NCBI RefSeq assembly: GCF_016031625.1
Contig: NZ_JACCHP010000021.1
Coordinates: 1-64,000 of the forward strand
Direction: 5' to 3'
Source: Bradyrhizobium agreste
GTDB lineage: Bacteria > Pseudomonadota > Alphaproteobacteria > Rhizobiales > Xanthobacteraceae
DNA length: 64,000 bases
Under the pieces are notes generated by a model. That model did no database searches. It worked only from the letters and a program-made list of their open reading frames with translations, and was not told the origin of the DNA. The first letter of the stretch is position 1, and each line of letters begins with the position of its first letter. Position numbers and translations under genes: made by a program. Positions 36,036 to 44,970 of the stretch are shown piece after piece.

Positions 36036-37142
36036 CTACTTCGCCGCAACAGCGATCCGCTCCGGAAACGCCGCCGCCAGCGATGCGCGATCCGGCTTCA
36101 GCACGCCGCGCTCGGTAATGAGACCGGTGACGAGCCGCGCCGGCGTCACGTCGAAGGCGTAGTTCGCGACCGGCGAGCTCTCGGGCACGATGCGCACTGT
36201 CTCCAGCCGACCGTCCGCGGTGCGGCCGGTCATGTCGGTGACCTCCACGCCGCTGCGCTGCTCGATCGGGATGTCGCGGACGCCGTCATGAACGGCGAAA
36301 TCGATCGTTGGCGACGGCAGCGCGACGTAGAACGGCACGCCGTTGTCATGCGCGGCAAGCGCCTTCAGGTAAGTGCCGATCTTGTTGCAGACGTCGCCGT
36401 TGGCGGCGACGCGATCGGTGCCGACGATGGCGAGATCGACCATGCCGTGCTGCATCAGGTGCCCGCCGGTATTGTCCGGGATCACCGTGTGCGGCACGCC
36501 GTGATGGCCGAGCTCCCAGGCGGTCAGCGAGGCGCCCTGATTCCGTGGCCGGGTCTCGTCGACCCAGACATGGACCTTGATGCCGCGCTCGTGCGCAAGA
36601 TAGATCGGCGCGGTCGCCGTGCCCCAGTCAACGGTGGCGAGCCAGCCGGCGTTGCAATGGGTCAGCACGTTGACCACGTCGCCCGGCTTCTTCGCCGCGG
36701 TCGCCTCGATCAGCTTCAACCCGTTGTCGGCAATGCCGCGGTTGATCTCGACGTCCTGCTCGGCGATCTCGTCAGCGCGCGCATAGGCCGCTTCCGCCCT
36801 CTCAACCGGATCAACCGGCGCGAGCGAAGAGCGCATCTCGTCCAGCGCCCATTTCAGATTGATCGCGGTCGGCCGCGCCACGACGAGCGTGTCATACGCA
36901 CGTTGCAGCCCGGCGTCGGAGGCATCCTCGCGCATCGCGAGCGCCATGCCGTAGGCGGCGGTGGCGCCGATCAGCGGCGCGCCGCGCACCAGCATGTCGC
37001 GGATGGCAACGGCCGCATCTTCACACGAGGTCAGCCGCGCAATGACGAATTCATGCGGCAGCCGGCGCTGATCGATCGCACCGACCGACCAGCCGTCGCG
37101 CTCGCGCCAGATGCTGCGGAAATGCTTGCCGTCGACCTTCAT
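36036..37142 (-). CDS. mtnA: S-methyl-5-thioribose-1-phosphate isomerase
   Basis: A 368-residue cytoplasmic enzyme of the methionine salvage pathway that turns methylthioribose-1-phosphate into methylthioribulose-1-phosphate. Catalytic Cys lies in [12 protein letters not shown] and Asp in [19 protein letters not shown]. The family's [13 protein letters not shown] and [17 protein letters not shown] are present. It follows mtnP by 30 nt on the same strand, and the product of MtnP is its substrate. Confidence 0.93.
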
Positions 37143-37172
37143 GGCATTCTGCCTTTTCGTTCTTGTTGCGTC

Positions 37173-38048
<876 letters not shown>

Positions 38049-38139: not shown

Positions 38140-38412
38140 TTAAGCCGCGGTCGCCGGCTGCAGCTGGGTCGCCACCATCCGCTCCAGCGTCTCGACAGAC
38201 TGGAAATTCTCCGGCGTGATCTCGGACTGCGGGATGGTGAAGTCGAATTCGGCCTCGACCCCAAGCATGAGATTGACCATGTCCATCGAGGTCAGGCCGA
38301 TATCGACGAGCTTGGCCGAAGGCGTAACGTCTGCGGGAAGCGAATTCTGTTCGAGGATGCCCTTCACCAGCTTGATGATGCGATTGCGCAAATCGGTATC
38401 GAAGGCCTGCAT
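38140..38412 (-). CDS. Acyl carrier protein, probable partner of the aminoacyl:carrier-protein ligase
   Basis: A 90-residue carrier protein. The phosphopantetheine attachment site is Ser42 in DIGLTSMDMVNLMLGVEAEF; the usual DSL is TSM here. Length, the acidic helix after Ser42 and ATG 38412 with GGGAA upstream fit a small standalone carrier protein and not AcpP. It is divergent from the dehydrogenase-ligase-GNAT run. In B. japonicum a similar carrier protein next to the ligase is charged with glycine or alanine; the same role is inferred here. Confidence 0.85.
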   Translation of the reverse strand: MQAFDTDLRNRIIKLVKGILEQNSLPADVTPSAKLVDIGLTSMDMVNLMLGVEAEFDFTIPQSEITPENFQSVETLERMVATQLQPATAA

Positions 38413-38772
38413 CGGCAAATTCCCATCTGTCTATCGGGGTCGGACCGGACTGCCGGCTACGATGGGTGCGGGCTGCCGGTCCTGCAATGGGCGGCACCAA
38501 TACTTCGCGTTTCTTAGTAAACGATGACTCGGATTGTCGAAAAATCCAGGCTTCTTCCAGAGTCCTAACGCGATGCCGGAAAATCCGGTGATGCGAACAA
38601 CCGCACCTTAACTGTTCGTTCGGAATTGGGTTTTGTTTACCCTCTATTTCATCGACGAATTTGAATTAAATCCGTAGCCTCGTCTCACAAGCAAAGATGG
38701 CTGGAGGATCGCGTCAAGCGGCATCGCGAATGATGCCGGCGATCTCGAACGGCAAACCGGAGGCGGACGAGT
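38413..38772. other. Divergent promoter region of the aminoacyl-carrier-protein cluster
   Basis: A 360 nt gap that looks clearly more AT-rich in its middle (about 38500-38690) than neighbouring DNA. No gene was found. It should hold the promoters of the carrier-protein gene and of the dehydrogenase-ligase operon, but no clear -35/-10, sigma-54 or FixK box was recognised. Confidence 0.5.
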
Positions 38773-39990
38773 ATGAACGTGCGTGAAGCAGTCCTCACTG
38801 GCGACGAAATGCAGACGAGCTTTCTCGAGCAGGGTCTTTCCCTGATCGAGCGCGCCGCCCGGACCGCCGCAGCGGCGGCGGCCGACGCAGACGCGGTCGA
38901 TCGCGACGCCCGCTTCCCGCACAAGGCCTTCGACGTCGCGCGTGAGCAGAAGCTGCTCGGCGTGATGGTTCCGGTCGAGTTCGGCGGCCTCAGTGCCTCG
39001 ATCCACGACGTCACCGACATCTGCTACACGCTCGGACGCGCCTGCGCGTCCACGGCGATGATCTACGCGATGCACCAGACCAAGGTCGCCTGCGTCATCA
39101 GGCACGGCCATGGCATCCCGTGGATGGAAACCATGATGCGCCGGATCGCCCGCGACCAGTGGCTGCTCGCCTCCTCCACCACCGAAGGCCAGAATGGCGG
39201 CAACATCCGCGCCAGCGCCGCTGCGGTCGACCACGCCGGCGACACCGTTTCGCTGGTGCGCGACGCCACCGTGATCTCCTACGGCGCCGAAGCCGATGGT
39301 CTCGTCACCATCGCCCGCCGCGCCACCGACGCCGCCGCCTCCGACCAGGTGCTGCTGGCGCTCGCCAAGGACGATTATACGCTGAAGCGGACGCTGGGCT
39401 GGGAAACGCTCGGCATGCGCGGCACCTGCTCGACCGGATTCGAGCTGAAGGTCGACTGTCCCGCCGACCGCGTCTTCCCGGAATCCTATGACAAGATCCA
39501 CGCCCAGACGATGACGCCGTTCGCGCATCTGTGCTGGTCGTCGGCCTGGGCCGGCATCGCTGCTGCGGCGGTGACGCGCGCGCAGGCCTTCATTCGCAAG
39601 GCGGCGCGCTCGTCCGGCGGACAGATGCCCCCGGCCGCGGCGCACTTCACCGCCGCCAAGATGTCGCTGGCCAAGCTGCGCGCGCTGATTGCCGCCAATA
39701 TTGACGCTTTCGCCCGCGTCGAGCACGACGAGCGTGCGCTGACCTCGCTCGACTTCCAGTCCTCGATCACGCTTTTGAAGGTGCAGGCCTCCGAGCTCGC
39801 GGTCGAGACCGTGATGCACGCGATGCGCACCGCGGGCCTCGCCGGCTACCGCAATGACGGCGAGTTCACCATGGGCCGTCACCTCCGCGACGTGCTGTCG
39901 TCGCCGATCATGATCAACAACGACCGGATCCTGGCCAATGCCGCGACATCGACATTGATGAGCGGCGTGCCGACGAGCCTTCGCGACTGA
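38773..39990 (+). CDS. Acyl-CoA dehydrogenase-like flavoprotein of the aminoacyl-carrier-protein cluster
   Basis: A 405-residue acyl-CoA dehydrogenase homologue. It has the N-terminal helical domain, a middle domain with LLASSTTEGQNGGNIRASAA at the FAD-contacting position, where typical enzymes have (S/T)EPxAGSD, and a C-terminal helical domain ending in GRHLRDVLSSPIMINNDRI. GGAGG precedes the ATG. It heads the operon with the aminoacyl:carrier-protein ligase, so its substrate may be an aminoacyl or acyl group on the carrier protein and not a free CoA ester. That is inference from context. Confidence 0.8.
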   Translation: MNVREAVLTGDEMQTSFLEQGLSLIERAARTAAAAAADADAVDRDARFPHKAFDVAREQKLLGVMVPVEFGGLSASIHDVTDICYTLGRACASTAMIYAMHQTKVACVIRHGHGIPWMETMMRRIARDQWLLASSTTEGQNGGNIRASAAAVDHAGDTVSLVRDATVISYGAEADGLVTIARRATDAAASDQVLLALAKDDYTLKRTLGWETLGMRGTCSTGFELKVDCPADRVFPESYDKIHAQTMTPFAHLCWSSAWAGIAAAAVTRAQAFIRKAARSSGGQMPPAAAHFTAAKMSLAKLRALIAANIDAFARVEHDERALTSLDFQSSITLLKVQASELAVETVMHAMRTAGLAGYRNDGEFTMGRHLRDVLSSPIMINNDRILANAATSTLMSGVPTSLRD

Positions 39991-40046
39991 CGTGCCTCCG
40001 CGACCGCTTCAACAAGAACAATTTTGAGATAGCAGGACATCGAACC

Positions 40047-41027
40047 ATGAATATTGCCGTCTTTCCCAATTCGCCCGCGACCGCGCCGCAGATGAGCGAT
40101 CCGCTCGATCATCTCGCCGACAAGCTGTTCCACCGCATGGGCGCCGATGGCGTCTATGCCCGCACCGCACTCTACGAGGGCATCGTCGAGAAGCTGGCTG
40201 CCCTGATCACCGGTCATCGCGAGGCCGGCACCGAGGTGATGCGCTTCCCGCCGGTGATGAGCCGGGCGCAGCTGGAGAAGTCCGGCTATCTCAAGAGCTT
40301 TCCGAACCTGCTCGGCTGCGTCTGCGGCCTGCACGGCACCGAACGCGAGATCAACGCCGCGGTGAGCCGCTTCGATGCCGGCGGCGACTGGACGACGTCG
40401 CTTTCGCCGGCCGATCTCGTGCTGTCACCGGCCGCCTGCTATCCGGTCTATCCGATCGCGGCGAGCCGCGGACCTTTGCCGAAGGGCGGCCTGCGCTTCG
40501 ACGTTGCCGCCGATTGCTTCCGCCGCGAGCCCTCGAAGCATCTCGACCGGCTGCAATCGTTCCGCATGCGCGAATATGTCTGCATCGGCAGCCCCGACGA
40601 CGTTGCCGATTTCCGCGAGCGCTGGATGGTGCGTGCGCAGAAGATCGCGACCGACCTCGGTCTCACTTTCCGCGTCGACTATGCCAGCGATCCGTTCTTC
40701 GGCCGGGTCGGCCAGATGAAGGCGGTGAGCCAGAAGCAGCAGCAGCTCAAGTTCGAGCTCCTCATCCCGCTGCGCTCGGAGGAGCAGCCGACGGCGTGCA
40801 TGAGCTTCAACTATCACCGCGAGCATTTCGGCACGACCTGGGGAATCCAGGATGCCAACGGCGAGCCGGCGCACACCGGCTGCGTGGCCTTCGGCATGGA
40901 CCGTCTGGCCGTCGCCATGTTCCACACCCACGGCACCGATCTTTCCGCCTGGCCCGCCAGGGTGCGGGACATCCTGAGCCTGCAGCCGCCTGTCGCGGCC
41001 GAGGCCCACGGCGAAGGCTGGCGCTGA
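40047..41027 (+). CDS. Amino acid--[acyl-carrier-protein] ligase (atypical SerRS homologue)
   Basis: A 326-residue class II synthetase-like enzyme. It activates a small amino acid with ATP and loads it on the phosphopantetheine of a carrier protein instead of tRNA. The zinc ligands of methanogen-type SerRS are kept at Cys131 (SPAACYPVYP), Glu176 (FRMREY) and Cys279 (AHTGCVAFGMDR), the positions reported for the B. japonicum glycine:carrier-protein ligase. Motif 2 is DCFRREPSKHLDRLQSFRMR and motif 3 GMDRLAVAM. The N-terminal tRNA-binding domain of SerRS is absent. Its carrier protein is probably the divergent gene ending at 38412. Confidence 0.92.
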   Translation: MNIAVFPNSPATAPQMSDPLDHLADKLFHRMGADGVYARTALYEGIVEKLAALITGHREAGTEVMRFPPVMSRAQLEKSGYLKSFPNLLGCVCGLHGTEREINAAVSRFDAGGDWTTSLSPADLVLSPAACYPVYPIAASRGPLPKGGLRFDVAADCFRREPSKHLDRLQSFRMREYVCIGSPDDVADFRERWMVRAQKIATDLGLTFRVDYASDPFFGRVGQMKAVSQKQQQLKFELLIPLRSEEQPTACMSFNYHREHFGTTWGIQDANGEPAHTGCVAFGMDRLAVAMFHTHGTDLSAWPARVRDILSLQPPVAAEAHGEGWR

Positions 41028-41068
41028 CACAACTCACGAGGCCGGTCATTTCCACGGGCAAGACGAGC

Positions 41069-41944
41069 GTGATCCATACCAAGGTCCGATGCCGCGAGAT
41101 CACCGAATCCGACGTCAATAAGATCGCGGACTTGCTGACGCGCGGCTTCGCCGGCCGTTCACGCGATTACTGGATTCAGGGCCTGCGTCGGCAGGCCTTC
41201 CGGACCGTGCCGGAGGGCTATCCGCGCTTCGGCTACATGCTCGACGACGGCGGCACGCCAGTCGGCGTGCTGCTCTTGATCTACACCGCACGCAAGGAAG
41301 GCGAAGAGACCGCCATCCGCTGCAATCTGTCGAGCTGGTATGTTGACCCGGCCTACCGCAATTACGCTCCGCTGCTGACCAAGATCGCCCAGCGGCACAA
41401 GCACGTCACTTATTTCAACATCAGCCCGGCGCCGTGGACCTGGCCGATCATCGAGACGCAGGGCTTTCGCGCCTATTGCCGCGGCATATTCTTCTCGGTC
41501 CCGGCGCTGGCGCGCGTGCCGCGCTGGAGCGAGGTCGAGGTCATTCCGCCGCACGCCAAGGAGATCAAGGGGCTTTCCGAGGCGGAGACCGAGCTCTTGA
41601 CGCGACATGCGCGCTACAATTGCCTCAGCCTCGTCTGCCGCACGCCGAAGGGGACGTTCCCCTTCATCCTGCAACCGGTGCGCATCCGCCGCGGTTTCAT
41701 CGCACCGCCCGCGATGAAACTGATCTATTGCCGGAGCGCCGCAGACTATGCCGAATGCGCCGGCCGCATCGGACGGCTGCTGCTGCGGCTCGGCAAGATC
41801 GCGGTGGCCATCGACACCAACGGGCCGATTTCCGGCCTCGTCGGCATCTACACCGAGCGGCGCGGCCGGAAATACTTCAGGGGCCCGCACCAGCCGGAGC
41901 TCGGCGACCTCACCGACACGGAGCTCGTGCTGTACGGGCCGTAA
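41069..41944 (+). CDS. GNAT-like acyltransferase of the aminoacyl-carrier-protein cluster
   Basis: A 291-residue protein with an N-terminal GNAT-like fold (residues about 8-140: REITESDVNKIADLLTRGF, then GTPVGVLLLIYT and NLSSWYVDPAYRNYAPLLTK). A second half of about 150 residues has no recognised motif. The start is uncertain: GTG 41069 is used, and no ATG lies in frame between it and the ligase stop. It follows the ligase by 41 nt, so it may transfer the aminoacyl or a derived acyl group from the carrier protein to an unknown acceptor. Confidence 0.7.
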   Translation: MIHTKVRCREITESDVNKIADLLTRGFAGRSRDYWIQGLRRQAFRTVPEGYPRFGYMLDDGGTPVGVLLLIYTARKEGEETAIRCNLSSWYVDPAYRNYAPLLTKIAQRHKHVTYFNISPAPWTWPIIETQGFRAYCRGIFFSVPALARVPRWSEVEVIPPHAKEIKGLSEAETELLTRHARYNCLSLVCRTPKGTFPFILQPVRIRRGFIAPPAMKLIYCRSAADYAECAGRIGRLLLRLGKIAVAIDTNGPISGLVGIYTERRGRKYFRGPHQPELGDLTDTELVLYGP

Positions 41945-42102: not shown

Positions 42103-44970
42103 ATGACGTCGACCCGCGACAGCGAGCTTGGTACAGGCCGTGAGCAGGGACCGGACGCCCTGGTCGCGCTGAGCCAGCTTGCGCTCGATCACATGGAGCA
42201 GGGCGTCTGCGTCTACGATGCCGAGAACCGGATCGTGCTGGCGAACCAGCGCTACCTCACGCTGTTCGACATGTCGGCCGACATCGTGCGGGTCGGCACG
42301 AGCTACCGGGAGGTGCTTGCGCACAGCGCAAGCCGCGGCAACTTTCCGCAAGACCAGCTCGACGCGTTGTATTCGACGCGAATGGCGCAGATCGCCGCGG
42401 GCAAACCGTTCCGCACCGAGCAATTGCTGGCGAGCGGCCTCGTCATGTCGCTCGAGCTGAAGCCGCTCCCCGGCGGCGGCTGGATGACGATCTGCGACGA
42501 CGTCACCCGCCTCGCGCGGCTCGAAGCGGAACTGCGGGTGCAGACCGAGCGCAGCCAGCACGCGCTCGCCAACATGTCGCACGGACTGATCATGTACGAC
42601 GTCGACAGCCGTGTGGTCGTCTGCAACGATCGGTTCCTGAAGCTCTACAACCTCGATCCTGACATCGTGAAGGCGGGCGTCGCGCATTCTACGGTGATCG
42701 AGCACTGGATGTCGCGCGGCAACCTGCCGGGCATGTCGGGCGACCAGTTCTACCAGAGCCGGCTGGCGGATGTGCGGAGCAGGAAGCCGAAGACGCTGCT
42801 GGTGATGCGCTACGACGGGCGGATGGTGCAGGCGGTCTCCCGCTTCCTGCCCGACGGCGGCTGGGTGACGGTGCACGAGGACGTCACAGAGCGGCTGCAA
42901 TACGAGGAAACGCTGCGGCAGCAGAATTTCATGCTCGATGCGGCGCTGGAAAACATGGCGCACGGGCTCGCCTTCTATGACAGCGACATGCGGCTTCGGA
43001 TCTGCAACACCACCTACCGCAAGATCTACCGGCTGTCGCCGGAGGAGACCCGGCCCGGCACCCATCTGGCCGAACTGATCGAGCGATCGATGGCGAACGG
43101 CGCGTTCAACTCCGAATACAGCCCGCAGCAGATCCTCGAAACCGCCCGCGCGCGGATCGCGAGCCGCGACTCCTCGCCGATGCGCCGGCGCATGTCGAAC
43201 GACACGGTGATTTCGGTGCGCTATTGCGCGCTGGCCGAAGGCGGTTTCGTCGCCACCTATGAGGACATTACCGAGCGCGAACGCGCGATCGAGGAGCTGA
43301 GTGAGCAGTACCGCCGGTTCGACGCGGCCCTGAACAACATGAGCCAGGGCCTGTGCATGCTCGACGCCAGCCTGCGCGTGATCGTTTGCAACCGCCGCTA
43401 CATCGAGATGTACGGACTGTCGCCGGAGATCGTGAAGCCGGGCGTCTCGATGCGGGAGATCATGGACCACGCCTGCGAGCTCGGCATCCATCCGAACATG
43501 ACCGGCGCCAAGCTCTATGCCGACTACGTCGAGAGGCTGCGCGAGGGCGAGCACACGCTGCACTGCCATTTGAACGACGGCCGCATCATCAAGCTCAACC
43601 ACAAGCGCATGGAGCATGGCGGCTGGGTCGTGACCTATGAGGACGTCACCGAGCGCCACAAGGCCCAGGCCCGGGTGGCGCACATGGCCCGGCACGATTC
43701 GCTGACCGACCTGCCCAACCGCACGCTGTTCCGCGAGAAGATGGGCGAGGGACTGAACCAGATCGCGATCGCCGGCGGCGCCATGGCGGTGCTCTGCTTC
43801 GACCTCGACAATTTCAAGACCGTCAACGACCGCCTCGGCCACGCCGCAGGCGACCGCCTGCTGCGCTGGGTCGCGGCGCGCCTCAAGGAGAATGTCGGCG
43901 AGCACGACACCGTTGCGCGGCTTGGCGGCGACGAGTTCGCCGTTCTCCAGCGCGGGCCGCAGCCGCAATCGGCCGAGGAGCTCGCCCGCCGTCTGGTCGA
44001 CATCATCGGTCATCCGCCGCCGCTGGAAAGCCAGTCGATCCATGTCGGCGTCTCCGTCGGCATCGCGATCGCGCCCGACCATGGACTCGATGCCGACGAG
44101 CTGATGAAGTGCGCCGACCTCGCGCTGTACCAGGCCAAGGCCAAGGGGCGCGGCGCCTATCAGCTGTTCGAGCCCGAGATGGAGGAACAGGCGCGCAGCC
44201 GGCACGCGCTGGAGCAGGACCTGGTCGGCGCGCTGGAAGGGCGTGAATTCCACCTGGTGTTCCAGCCGCAGATGCGGCTCGATTCCTCCGAGCTCACCGG
44301 CTTCGAGGCATTGCTGCGCTGGAAACATCGCTCGCGCGGCTTCGTCTCTCCGGCCGAGTTCATCCCGATTGCAGAGGAGAACGGGCTGATCGTTCCGATC
44401 GGCGAATGGGTGCTGCGCACCGCCTGCGCGGCCGCCGCATCCTGGCCCGGCGTCACCGTCGCGGTGAACCTGTCTCCGGTGCAATTCCGCTCCCGCGCCC
44501 TGGTGGCGATGGTCACGAGCGCGCTCGCGGAAGCCGGCCTGCCGCCGCAGCGACTCGAGCTCGAGGTCACGGAGACGGCGCTGCTCGACGACAGCAAGGC
44601 GACCATCGACATCCTGCACCAGCTCCGCGCGCTCGGGGTGCGCGTCAGCCTCGACGATTTCGGTGTCGGCTATTCCTCGCTGAGCTACCTGCGCAAGTTT
44701 CCGTTCGACCGCATCAAGATCGACCGCTCCTTCGTCGGGACGCTCGGCGAAAGCCCGGAGAGCGTTGCCATCGTCAGAACGATCGCGAGCCTCGGCTCCG
44801 TGCTCGGCGTCGAGACCACGGCGGAGGGAGTGGAAACCGAGGAGCAGCTCGACTTCGTCCGCGAATGCGGCTGCACGGCGGTGCAAGGCTATTATTTCGG
44901 CAAGCCGTGTCTCGCCTCGGAAGTCGGCCGCACCATCGAGACGCTGAACATGGTCCGGCGCGTGGCCTGA
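42103..44970 (+). CDS. PAS-rich GGDEF-EAL cyclic-di-GMP enzyme
   Basis: A 955-residue cytoplasmic protein with no membrane segment. Four consecutive PAS-like repeats at about 25-145, 150-270, 285-405 and 410-525 each begin near LxNMxxGLxxYD and contain a VCN(D/R)RF-type core. GGDEF is intact at 608-612 (RLGGDEFAVL). EAL is intact at 735-737 (FEALLRWKH), with DDFGVGYSSLSYL and KIDRSF later. It could both make and degrade c-di-GMP. Four near-repeated PAS domains suggest redox or ligand sensing. No partner gene is adjacent. Confidence 0.9.
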   Translation: MTSTRDSELGTGREQGPDALVALSQLALDHMEQGVCVYDAENRIVLANQRYLTLFDMSADIVRVGTSYREVLAHSASRGNFPQDQLDALYSTRMAQIAAGKPFRTEQLLASGLVMSLELKPLPGGGWMTICDDVTRLARLEAELRVQTERSQHALANMSHGLIMYDVDSRVVVCNDRFLKLYNLDPDIVKAGVAHSTVIEHWMSRGNLPGMSGDQFYQSRLADVRSRKPKTLLVMRYDGRMVQAVSRFLPDGGWVTVHEDVTERLQYEETLRQQNFMLDAALENMAHGLAFYDSDMRLRICNTTYRKIYRLSPEETRPGTHLAELIERSMANGAFNSEYSPQQILETARARIASRDSSPMRRRMSNDTVISVRYCALAEGGFVATYEDITERERAIEELSEQYRRFDAALNNMSQGLCMLDASLRVIVCNRRYIEMYGLSPEIVKPGVSMREIMDHACELGIHPNMTGAKLYADYVERLREGEHTLHCHLNDGRIIKLNHKRMEHGGWVVTYEDVTERHKAQARVAHMARHDSLTDLPNRTLFREKMGEGLNQIAIAGGAMAVLCFDLDNFKTVNDRLGHAAGDRLLRWVAARLKENVGEHDTVARLGGDEFAVLQRGPQPQSAEELARRLVDIIGHPPPLESQSIHVGVSVGIAIAPDHGLDADELMKCADLALYQAKAKGRGAYQLFEPEMEEQARSRHALEQDLVGALEGREFHLVFQPQMRLDSSELTGFEALLRWKHRSRGFVSPAEFIPIAEENGLIVPIGEWVLRTACAAAASWPGVTVAVNLSPVQFRSRALVAMVTSALAEAGLPPQRLELEVTETALLDDSKATIDILHQLRALGVRVSLDDFGVGYSSLSYLRKFPFDRIKIDRSFVGTLGESPESVAIVRTIASLGSVLGVETTAEGVETEEQLDFVRECGCTAVQGYYFGKPCLASEVGRTIETLNMVRRVA

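Follow-up and report, generated by a model that had tools for sequence, protein, structure and literature searches.

Four genes at positions 38140 to 41944 of a 64,000-nucleotide stretch of the Bradyrhizobium agreste genome (the window) encode an aminoacyl carrier protein (CP), a flavoprotein of the acyl-CoA dehydrogenase fold (FLAV), an amino acid:[carrier protein] ligase (LIG), and a GNAT-like protein (GNAT). CP, FLAV, and LIG are a conserved core in both of the ligase clades distinguished below, which is newly described here, and the four genes seem to belong to a larger set of genes inherited together. They may handle glycine within a larger biosynthetic pathway, a reading to which a probability of about 0.5 is assigned. 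Carrier loading by this ligase family, and structures for it, have already been published, so that step is not new.

CP (38140 to 38412, reverse strand; 90 amino acids counted from the ATG, with a TTG start at 38418 in the open reading frame (ORF) list) includes the phosphopantetheine site GLTSMD, and matches the PP-binding Pfam family above its cut-off. As an 89-residue query, it matches chain C of PDB 4h2s, “Aminoacyl carrier protein 1,” over residues 1–89 (165 bits, E = 1.5e-48). A divergent intergenic region of 360 bp (38413 to 38772, from ORF coordinates and sequence) separates it from three forward-strand genes: FLAV (38773 to 39990, 405 amino acids), LIG (40047 to 41027, 326 amino acids), and GNAT (41069 to 41944, GTG start, 291 amino acids). 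These coordinates bear out an earlier note on this DNA, which grouped all four genes around one divergent promoter region.

LIG is an end-to-end match to Bll0957 of B. japonicum (PDB 3mey, 718 bits), and scores 485.5 bits in the NCBIfam family NF005479/PRK07080, against a cut-off of 357. With tRNA-synt_2b as its only Pfam domain, it is a catalytic core without a tRNA-binding domain. The recognition in the earlier note of an aminoacyl-carrier-protein system with a Bll0957-type ligase is upheld by these full-length matches, and the ligase residues it named, Cys131, Glu176, and Cys279, are exactly at their reported positions; all three are invariant across 24 aligned ligases, 45–94% identical to LIG (named Bradyrhizobium ligases are 91–97% identical). 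They presumably have a zinc role, and the amino acid specificity of Bll0957 is taken here to be glycine. By sequence comparison, the window pair is closely orthologous to the B. japonicum ligase and carrier of known structure, an already known system, and carrier loading therefore counts as known. For the family as a whole, the available text of two papers gives Gly or Ala (PMC5370406; PMC9437257), with Ser added in a table of the second. PDB 8zt4 (carrier protein, GNAT family transferase), which is among the CP search matches, may be relevant; a literature search by its code found no paper.

The ligase family is patchily distributed, with matches above cut-off in 30 of 198 genomes drawn from the same family, 10 of 385 from the class, and 28 of 398 from the phylum. 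A control search of 14 genomes gave one match, in Methanocaldococcus jannaschii, below the cut-off. Relatives at less than 60% identity also occur on plasmids, with 22 records from Streptomyces, six from Apilactobacillus, and three from Priestia.

Profile hidden Markov models built for each part were scanned against 140 loci: 80 named ones (the best 80 of 589 confirmed candidates, a sample biased to window-like ligases) and 60 others. After removal of four duplicates, a tree of 136 ligases contained clade 1 (window type, 97 ligases, split support 0.96), clade 2 (24 ligases, 0.84), and 15 distant ligases, which were kept out of the clade counts. Clade 1 has CP in 90 loci and FLAV in 95; the two loci lacking FLAV (L192 and L193), like several that lack CP, are truncated or short. 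GNAT is in 68 of the 97, and three further genes, for a second carrier protein (ACP2), an adenylate ligase (AMPL), and an SDR, are in 38, 39, and 37; DUF1839 and GH2 genes are in none. Many of the fetched stretches are short: 73 clade 1 loci have at least 5 kb on each side, and among these GNAT is in 58 and AMPL in 31. Clade 2, which includes plasmid loci of Rhizobium leguminosarum and Azospirillum argentinense, has the same core of CP, FLAV, and LIG in 24 of 24 loci, but DUF1839 (22) and mostly GH2 (21) genes replace GNAT and the ACP2, AMPL, and SDR genes; neither GNAT nor AMPL was found in any of them. Wherever it is found, FLAV is no more than 500 bp from LIG and on the same strand (95/95 and 24/24). 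CP is on the opposite strand to LIG in 88 of 90 clade 1 loci, and on the same strand in all 24 of clade 2.

All 30 of the named loci whose ligase is at least 91% identical keep CP, FLAV, LIG, and GNAT, so their grouping is more than chance. The idea that the genes stay together in other genomes therefore holds for CP, FLAV, and LIG in both clades and for GNAT within clade 1 (68/97), but fails for GNAT in clade 2 (0/24). In tests that took in only loci with ligase identity below 90%, distances between partner proteins correlated with LIG distances for FLAV (r = 0.77 in clade 1, 0.84 in clade 2), CP (0.71 and 0.61), GNAT (0.86), AMPL (0.74), and DUF1839 (0.75); in each of these seven tests, no permutation out of 999 reached the observed value. 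These values would fit joint descent, and plain vertical inheritance of neighbours would fit them as well.

The four genes had been described in the earlier note as a compact set; linkage elsewhere and marker co-presence argue against this. Clade 1 loci other than those of window-type Bradyrhizobium often carry SDR, AMPL, and ACP2 genes linked to the unit, and some add an acyl-CoA synthetase, an O-acetylhomoserine-sulfhydrylase-like enzyme, a MetA-like homoserine acyltransferase, an HSL-type hydrolase, and a class-IV aminotransferase. The last four directly follow GNAT in two Bradyrhizobium loci, L158 and L159. The window genome has similar genes at two further places. One run on contig C7 (L225:6505-10797) comprises an acyl-CoA synthetase, ACP2, AMPL, and a FabG-like SDR; its AMPL is 68% identical to the query, with the next-scoring match at 30%, and no NCBIfam family matches its ACP at E ≤ 1e-5. 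This run is a carrier module worth study of its own. A third locus has the MetA-like, sulfhydrylase, and hydrolase genes on contig C39, and the class-IV aminotransferase near the end of contig C41.

Co-presence was examined in 11 genomes of the same genus, all of them tested for four markers only: AMPL, GNAT, and the MetA-like and class-IV aminotransferase genes. The eight with LIG have orthologs of all four; the three without (G105, G122, and G138) lack all four, the aminotransferase paralog in G105 being 30% identical. The MetA-like query also gave four weak matches (33–35% identity) among 30 genomes searched. In the single-contig genome G024, LIG is at 0.60 Mb, the third locus at 1.32–1.33 Mb, and AMPL at 2.02 Mb, so far apart that co-presence there is not linkage. 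Of the 198 family genomes, 24 have AMPL (E ≤ 1e-80) and 25 a strong GNAT match (E ≤ 1e-100), with 24 genomes common to both. In the window genome there is one strong copy of GNAT, a second match being weak and partial (E = 8.8e-5).

The reading of the four genes as the glycine-handling part of a larger pathway is weakened by several observations. GNAT was not found in the fetched stretch of 29 of the 97 clade 1 loci (15 among the 73 that have 5 kb or more on each side). Among the 198 genomes, five more have weak GNAT matches (E from 1e-26 to 1e-48); two (G114, 96% complete, and G115, 88%) have AMPL and GNAT without LIG; one (G045) has GNAT only, and one (G068, 66% complete) LIG only; and G080 has a class-IV aminotransferase match (63% identity) without LIG. 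A TPP (thiamine pyrophosphate) enzyme linked to GNAT in several clusters was tried as a specific member and rejected: it is found at E ≤ 1e-120 in 133 of the 198 genomes, and so lends no support to the gene set. The three LIG-less genomes may be one lineage, in which case their co-absence may be one event. Finally, the activities of FLAV and GNAT are inferred. Shared lineage-specific gene content, rather than one pathway, could account for the absences, which may be one event, and for the window-genome loci being on different contigs; this is improbable, as other proteobacterial loci, with ligases 58–85% identical, carry these genes in physical clusters. It is also conceivable, if rather unlikely, that the four genes are adjacent by descent and that GNAT works with the second carrier module instead of on glycyl-CP: across the 198 genomes it tracks AMPL slightly better than LIG, and in many loci it adjoins ACP2. 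Yet GNAT lies just after LIG in the 30 window-type named loci, AMPL is elsewhere in the genome in the eight same-genus genomes, and a GNAT relative adjoins the distant ligase-carrier pair in L126.

FLAV matches the N- and C-terminal acyl-CoA dehydrogenase domains of Pfam above cut-off, and the middle domain below it; its structure model has a mean pLDDT of 84.7, and two structure searches both give the acyl-CoA dehydrogenase fold. The usual motif of such enzymes is EPxAGSD, and their canonical catalytic glutamates are at MCAD-376 and IVD-254. FLAV has no EPxAGSD-like motif, reading EGQNGGN at residues 138–144 (39184 to 39204, forward strand), as the earlier note had seen. In an alignment of 119 sequences (the window protein and 118 relatives drawn from the two clades, with one too-short stretch left out), E138 and G142 are invariant and G143 is present in 118; residue 139 is G in 104, and residue 144 is N in 96 and D in 19. 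Both glutamates are missing: residue 381, in the MCAD-type column, is Ile or Val, and residue 251, in the IVD-type column, is Ala, Ser, Cys, or Thr in 119 of 119, the columns having been placed via alignments to PDB 7p98, which itself has Thr at the first. H101, H252, W255, N383, and E138 are invariant in all 119. For the label “dehydrogenase-like,” the fold and the two domains stand, but with both canonical glutamates absent throughout its catalytic sense is doubtful. If the tethered amino acid is glycine, which has no beta-carbon, alpha,beta-dehydrogenation by FLAV is improbable, leaving imine formation or oxygenation.

Formation of an imino-thioester by a dehydrogenase or oxidase, giving iminoacetyl-CP (or glyoxylyl-CP after hydrolysis) with the invariant H101 or H252 as base, is plausible, though somewhat short of an even chance. 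It agrees with the overall fold and Pfam domains, and this fold is known to oxidise carrier-bound aminoacyl groups: Foldseek rows for FLAV include the prolyl-ACP oxidase 4irn, and ColB1 (7xp7) aligns with a VIA-align Z of 37.8. CaeB1 and ColB1, trans-acting flavoproteins for tethered aminoacyl groups, share the fold of FLAV and likewise work on a carrier-bound amino acid. They differ in serving nonribosomal peptide synthetase modules and acting on a cysteinyl group, and in needing a glutamate: CaeB1, which oxidises carrier-bound cysteine, requires E372 according to the available text (PMC8149447), at what is presumably the column where FLAV has Ile or Val, and FLAV has no glutamate at either column. 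An oxygenase of the nitrososynthase or DszC type, which would N-oxygenate carrier-bound glycine and lead to an N-oxidised, N-acylated amino-acid metabolite, is unlikely on balance. In its favour, both canonical glutamates are missing in all 119 sequences. The sugar N-oxygenase KijD3 is the first Foldseek match by E-value, with a nitrososynthase and DszC/TdsC ranked high as well, and the top query TM-score (0.81) among the 50 rows listed belongs to TdsC; the leading rows as a group mix oxygenases with dehydrogenases. Three distant ligases also lie just downstream of AurF-type N-oxygenase genes. Profile searches with FLAV, on the other hand, rank dehydrogenases first, and in VIA-align the two kinds of enzyme tie (Z 36.3–38.0 in the 50 rows listed), the best row being a dehydrogenase; because of this tie, a call between dehydrogenase and oxygenase by fold was dropped. 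Flavin reductase genes were recognised neither in the unit nor among the recurrent neighbours, which are annotated in part, and a shared reductase is possible.

The GNAT-like protein has no Pfam or NCBIfam family at E ≤ 1, but in its AlphaFold2 model (mean pLDDT 91.3) it adopts a tandem GNAT fold, which supports its original assignment. The top Foldseek rows are all GNAT proteins, and the best VIA row has Z = 14.3, with a root mean square deviation of 4.4 over 255 aligned residues. Its donor may be glycyl-CP, oxidised glycyl-CP, or acyl-ACP2. Presence of tandem GNAT and of DUF1839 divides by ligase clade (68/97 vs. 0/24 and 0/97 vs. 22/24 for clades 1 and 2, respectively), and the protein specific to each clade is its likely transferase. 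In the available text of one paper, DUF1839 is a papain-like protein that has a C(T/S)H triad; BtrH, which transfers acyl groups from ACP to aminoglycosides, is counted as papain-like there too, and a part for DUF1839 in processing cell-wall glycans is offered as a guess (PMC10318531). A GH2 beta-mannosidase-like protein is encoded in 21 of 24 clade 2 loci (e.g., L104:3075-5588), where a glycosylated product or acceptor is possible.

Some distant ligases have other partners. In L099, L100, and L128 (by Pfam) and L123 (same cluster) they are beside MBOAT genes; this combination of a SerRS-like ligase with MBOAT may represent Dlt-type aminoacylation with a tRNA-synthetase-like ligase. PP-binding carriers are beside the ligase in L102 and L126, and the ligase in L126 adjoins the GNAT relative (hhalign 96.9% over the N-terminal part). 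The AurF-type genes upstream of the ligase (Pfam AurF in L101; L127 and L129 by the same BLAST cluster) suggest N-oxidation of a carrier-bound amino acid. Gene content across these loci is consistent with an aminoacyl-carrier platform having exchangeable tailoring and transfer enzymes.

Under the glycine-handling reading, LIG would activate an amino acid (glycine, by orthology to Bll0957) and load it onto the phosphopantetheine arm of CP. FLAV would then oxidise the tethered amino acid other than by classical alpha,beta-dehydrogenation, either by C–N oxidation to an imine or by oxygenation, and the tandem GNAT would pass a carrier-bound acyl group to an acceptor; in clade 2 the papain-like DUF1839 would take this step. 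The C7 module of acyl-CoA synthetase, ACP2, AMPL, and SDR could supply another acyl unit, and the C39/C41 locus, with its MetA-like, sulfhydrylase-like, HSL-type hydrolase, and class-IV aminotransferase genes, an amino-acid-derived partner. That these loci serve one pathway is inferred, as are the order of steps, the FLAV reaction, the donor and acceptor of GNAT, and the product.

There is also a possible link to carbon storage. In the available text of a study of a phaR mutant (PMC10888616), bll0957 and bll0958 are up in the mutant under low oxygen (fold change 3.0 and 3.0; log2 fold change 2.5 and 1.7 in a second column), and a PhaR box, GGCATCGCGAAT, is predicted at -52 of bll0958; the electrophoretic mobility shift assay targets listed there do not include the bll0958 promoter. 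The identical 12-mer occurs in the window at -53 (one exact match, 0.05 expected), as the left part of an inverted repeat, GGCATC-N6-GATGCC (38720 to 38737, forward strand), 53 bp before the FLAV ATG. This repeat is perfect at -53 in 18 of 38 upstream regions, window included; flanking bases are conserved too, so its conservation alone is no proof of an operator. The phaR table also has bll1105 (metZ) and bll7459 (branched-chain aminotransferase) (PMC10888616), which are suggestive of the third locus and may be orthologs of its genes.

Beside CP, at 36036 to 38048, are two genes that are MtnA- and MtnP-like by eye (methionine salvage). The same pair adjoins CP in seven other same-genus loci with wide flanks, and has no match in the other 53 loci; it may be of interest given the homoserine chemistry of the third locus. 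After GNAT, at 42103 to 44970, the window and those seven loci have a gene for a large protein, by eye a multi-PAS GGDEF-EAL protein, which is likely a neutral neighbour.

Aminoacyl:carrier-protein ligases were reportedly described in 2010. Dlt (D-alanylation) systems consist of a ligase, a carrier, and an MBOAT transferase. The window unit resembles them in the logic of a free-standing ligase, carrier, and transferase, as do the distant ligases beside MBOAT genes, but has no MBOAT, and has a SerRS-like ligase and a flavoprotein. BtrH-type transfer from ACP to aminoglycosides uses a papain-like fold, which clade 2 DUF1839 shares (PMC10318531, available text); the window clade has tandem GNAT instead. 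A much more speculative scheme, and a quite improbable one, is that FLAV N-oxygenates the tethered glycine and GNAT joins it to the ACP2 acyl unit and to a homoserine-derived partner; the product would be a small metabolite for signalling or protection, controlled by PhaR (carbon storage), with DUF1839, MBOAT, or AurF-type enzymes on the same platform in other lineages; this would be an undescribed pathway of soil Proteobacteria.

The available text on the Bll0957 system covers loading and structure, and does not describe a wider gene set, an oxidation step, or a transferase; a 2022 review, in the part available, describes the biological role of the loaded carrier as still unknown (PMC9437257). 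A search of open-licence papers found none on the role of the four-gene or larger set, and no earlier account of the wider gene set, the clade-specific transferases, or the missing FLAV glutamates. With the wider set of genes, its pattern of co-presence, the transferases particular to each clade, and the link to PhaR, there are now named genes and a growth condition with which the role of the carrier in Bradyrhizobium may be probed.

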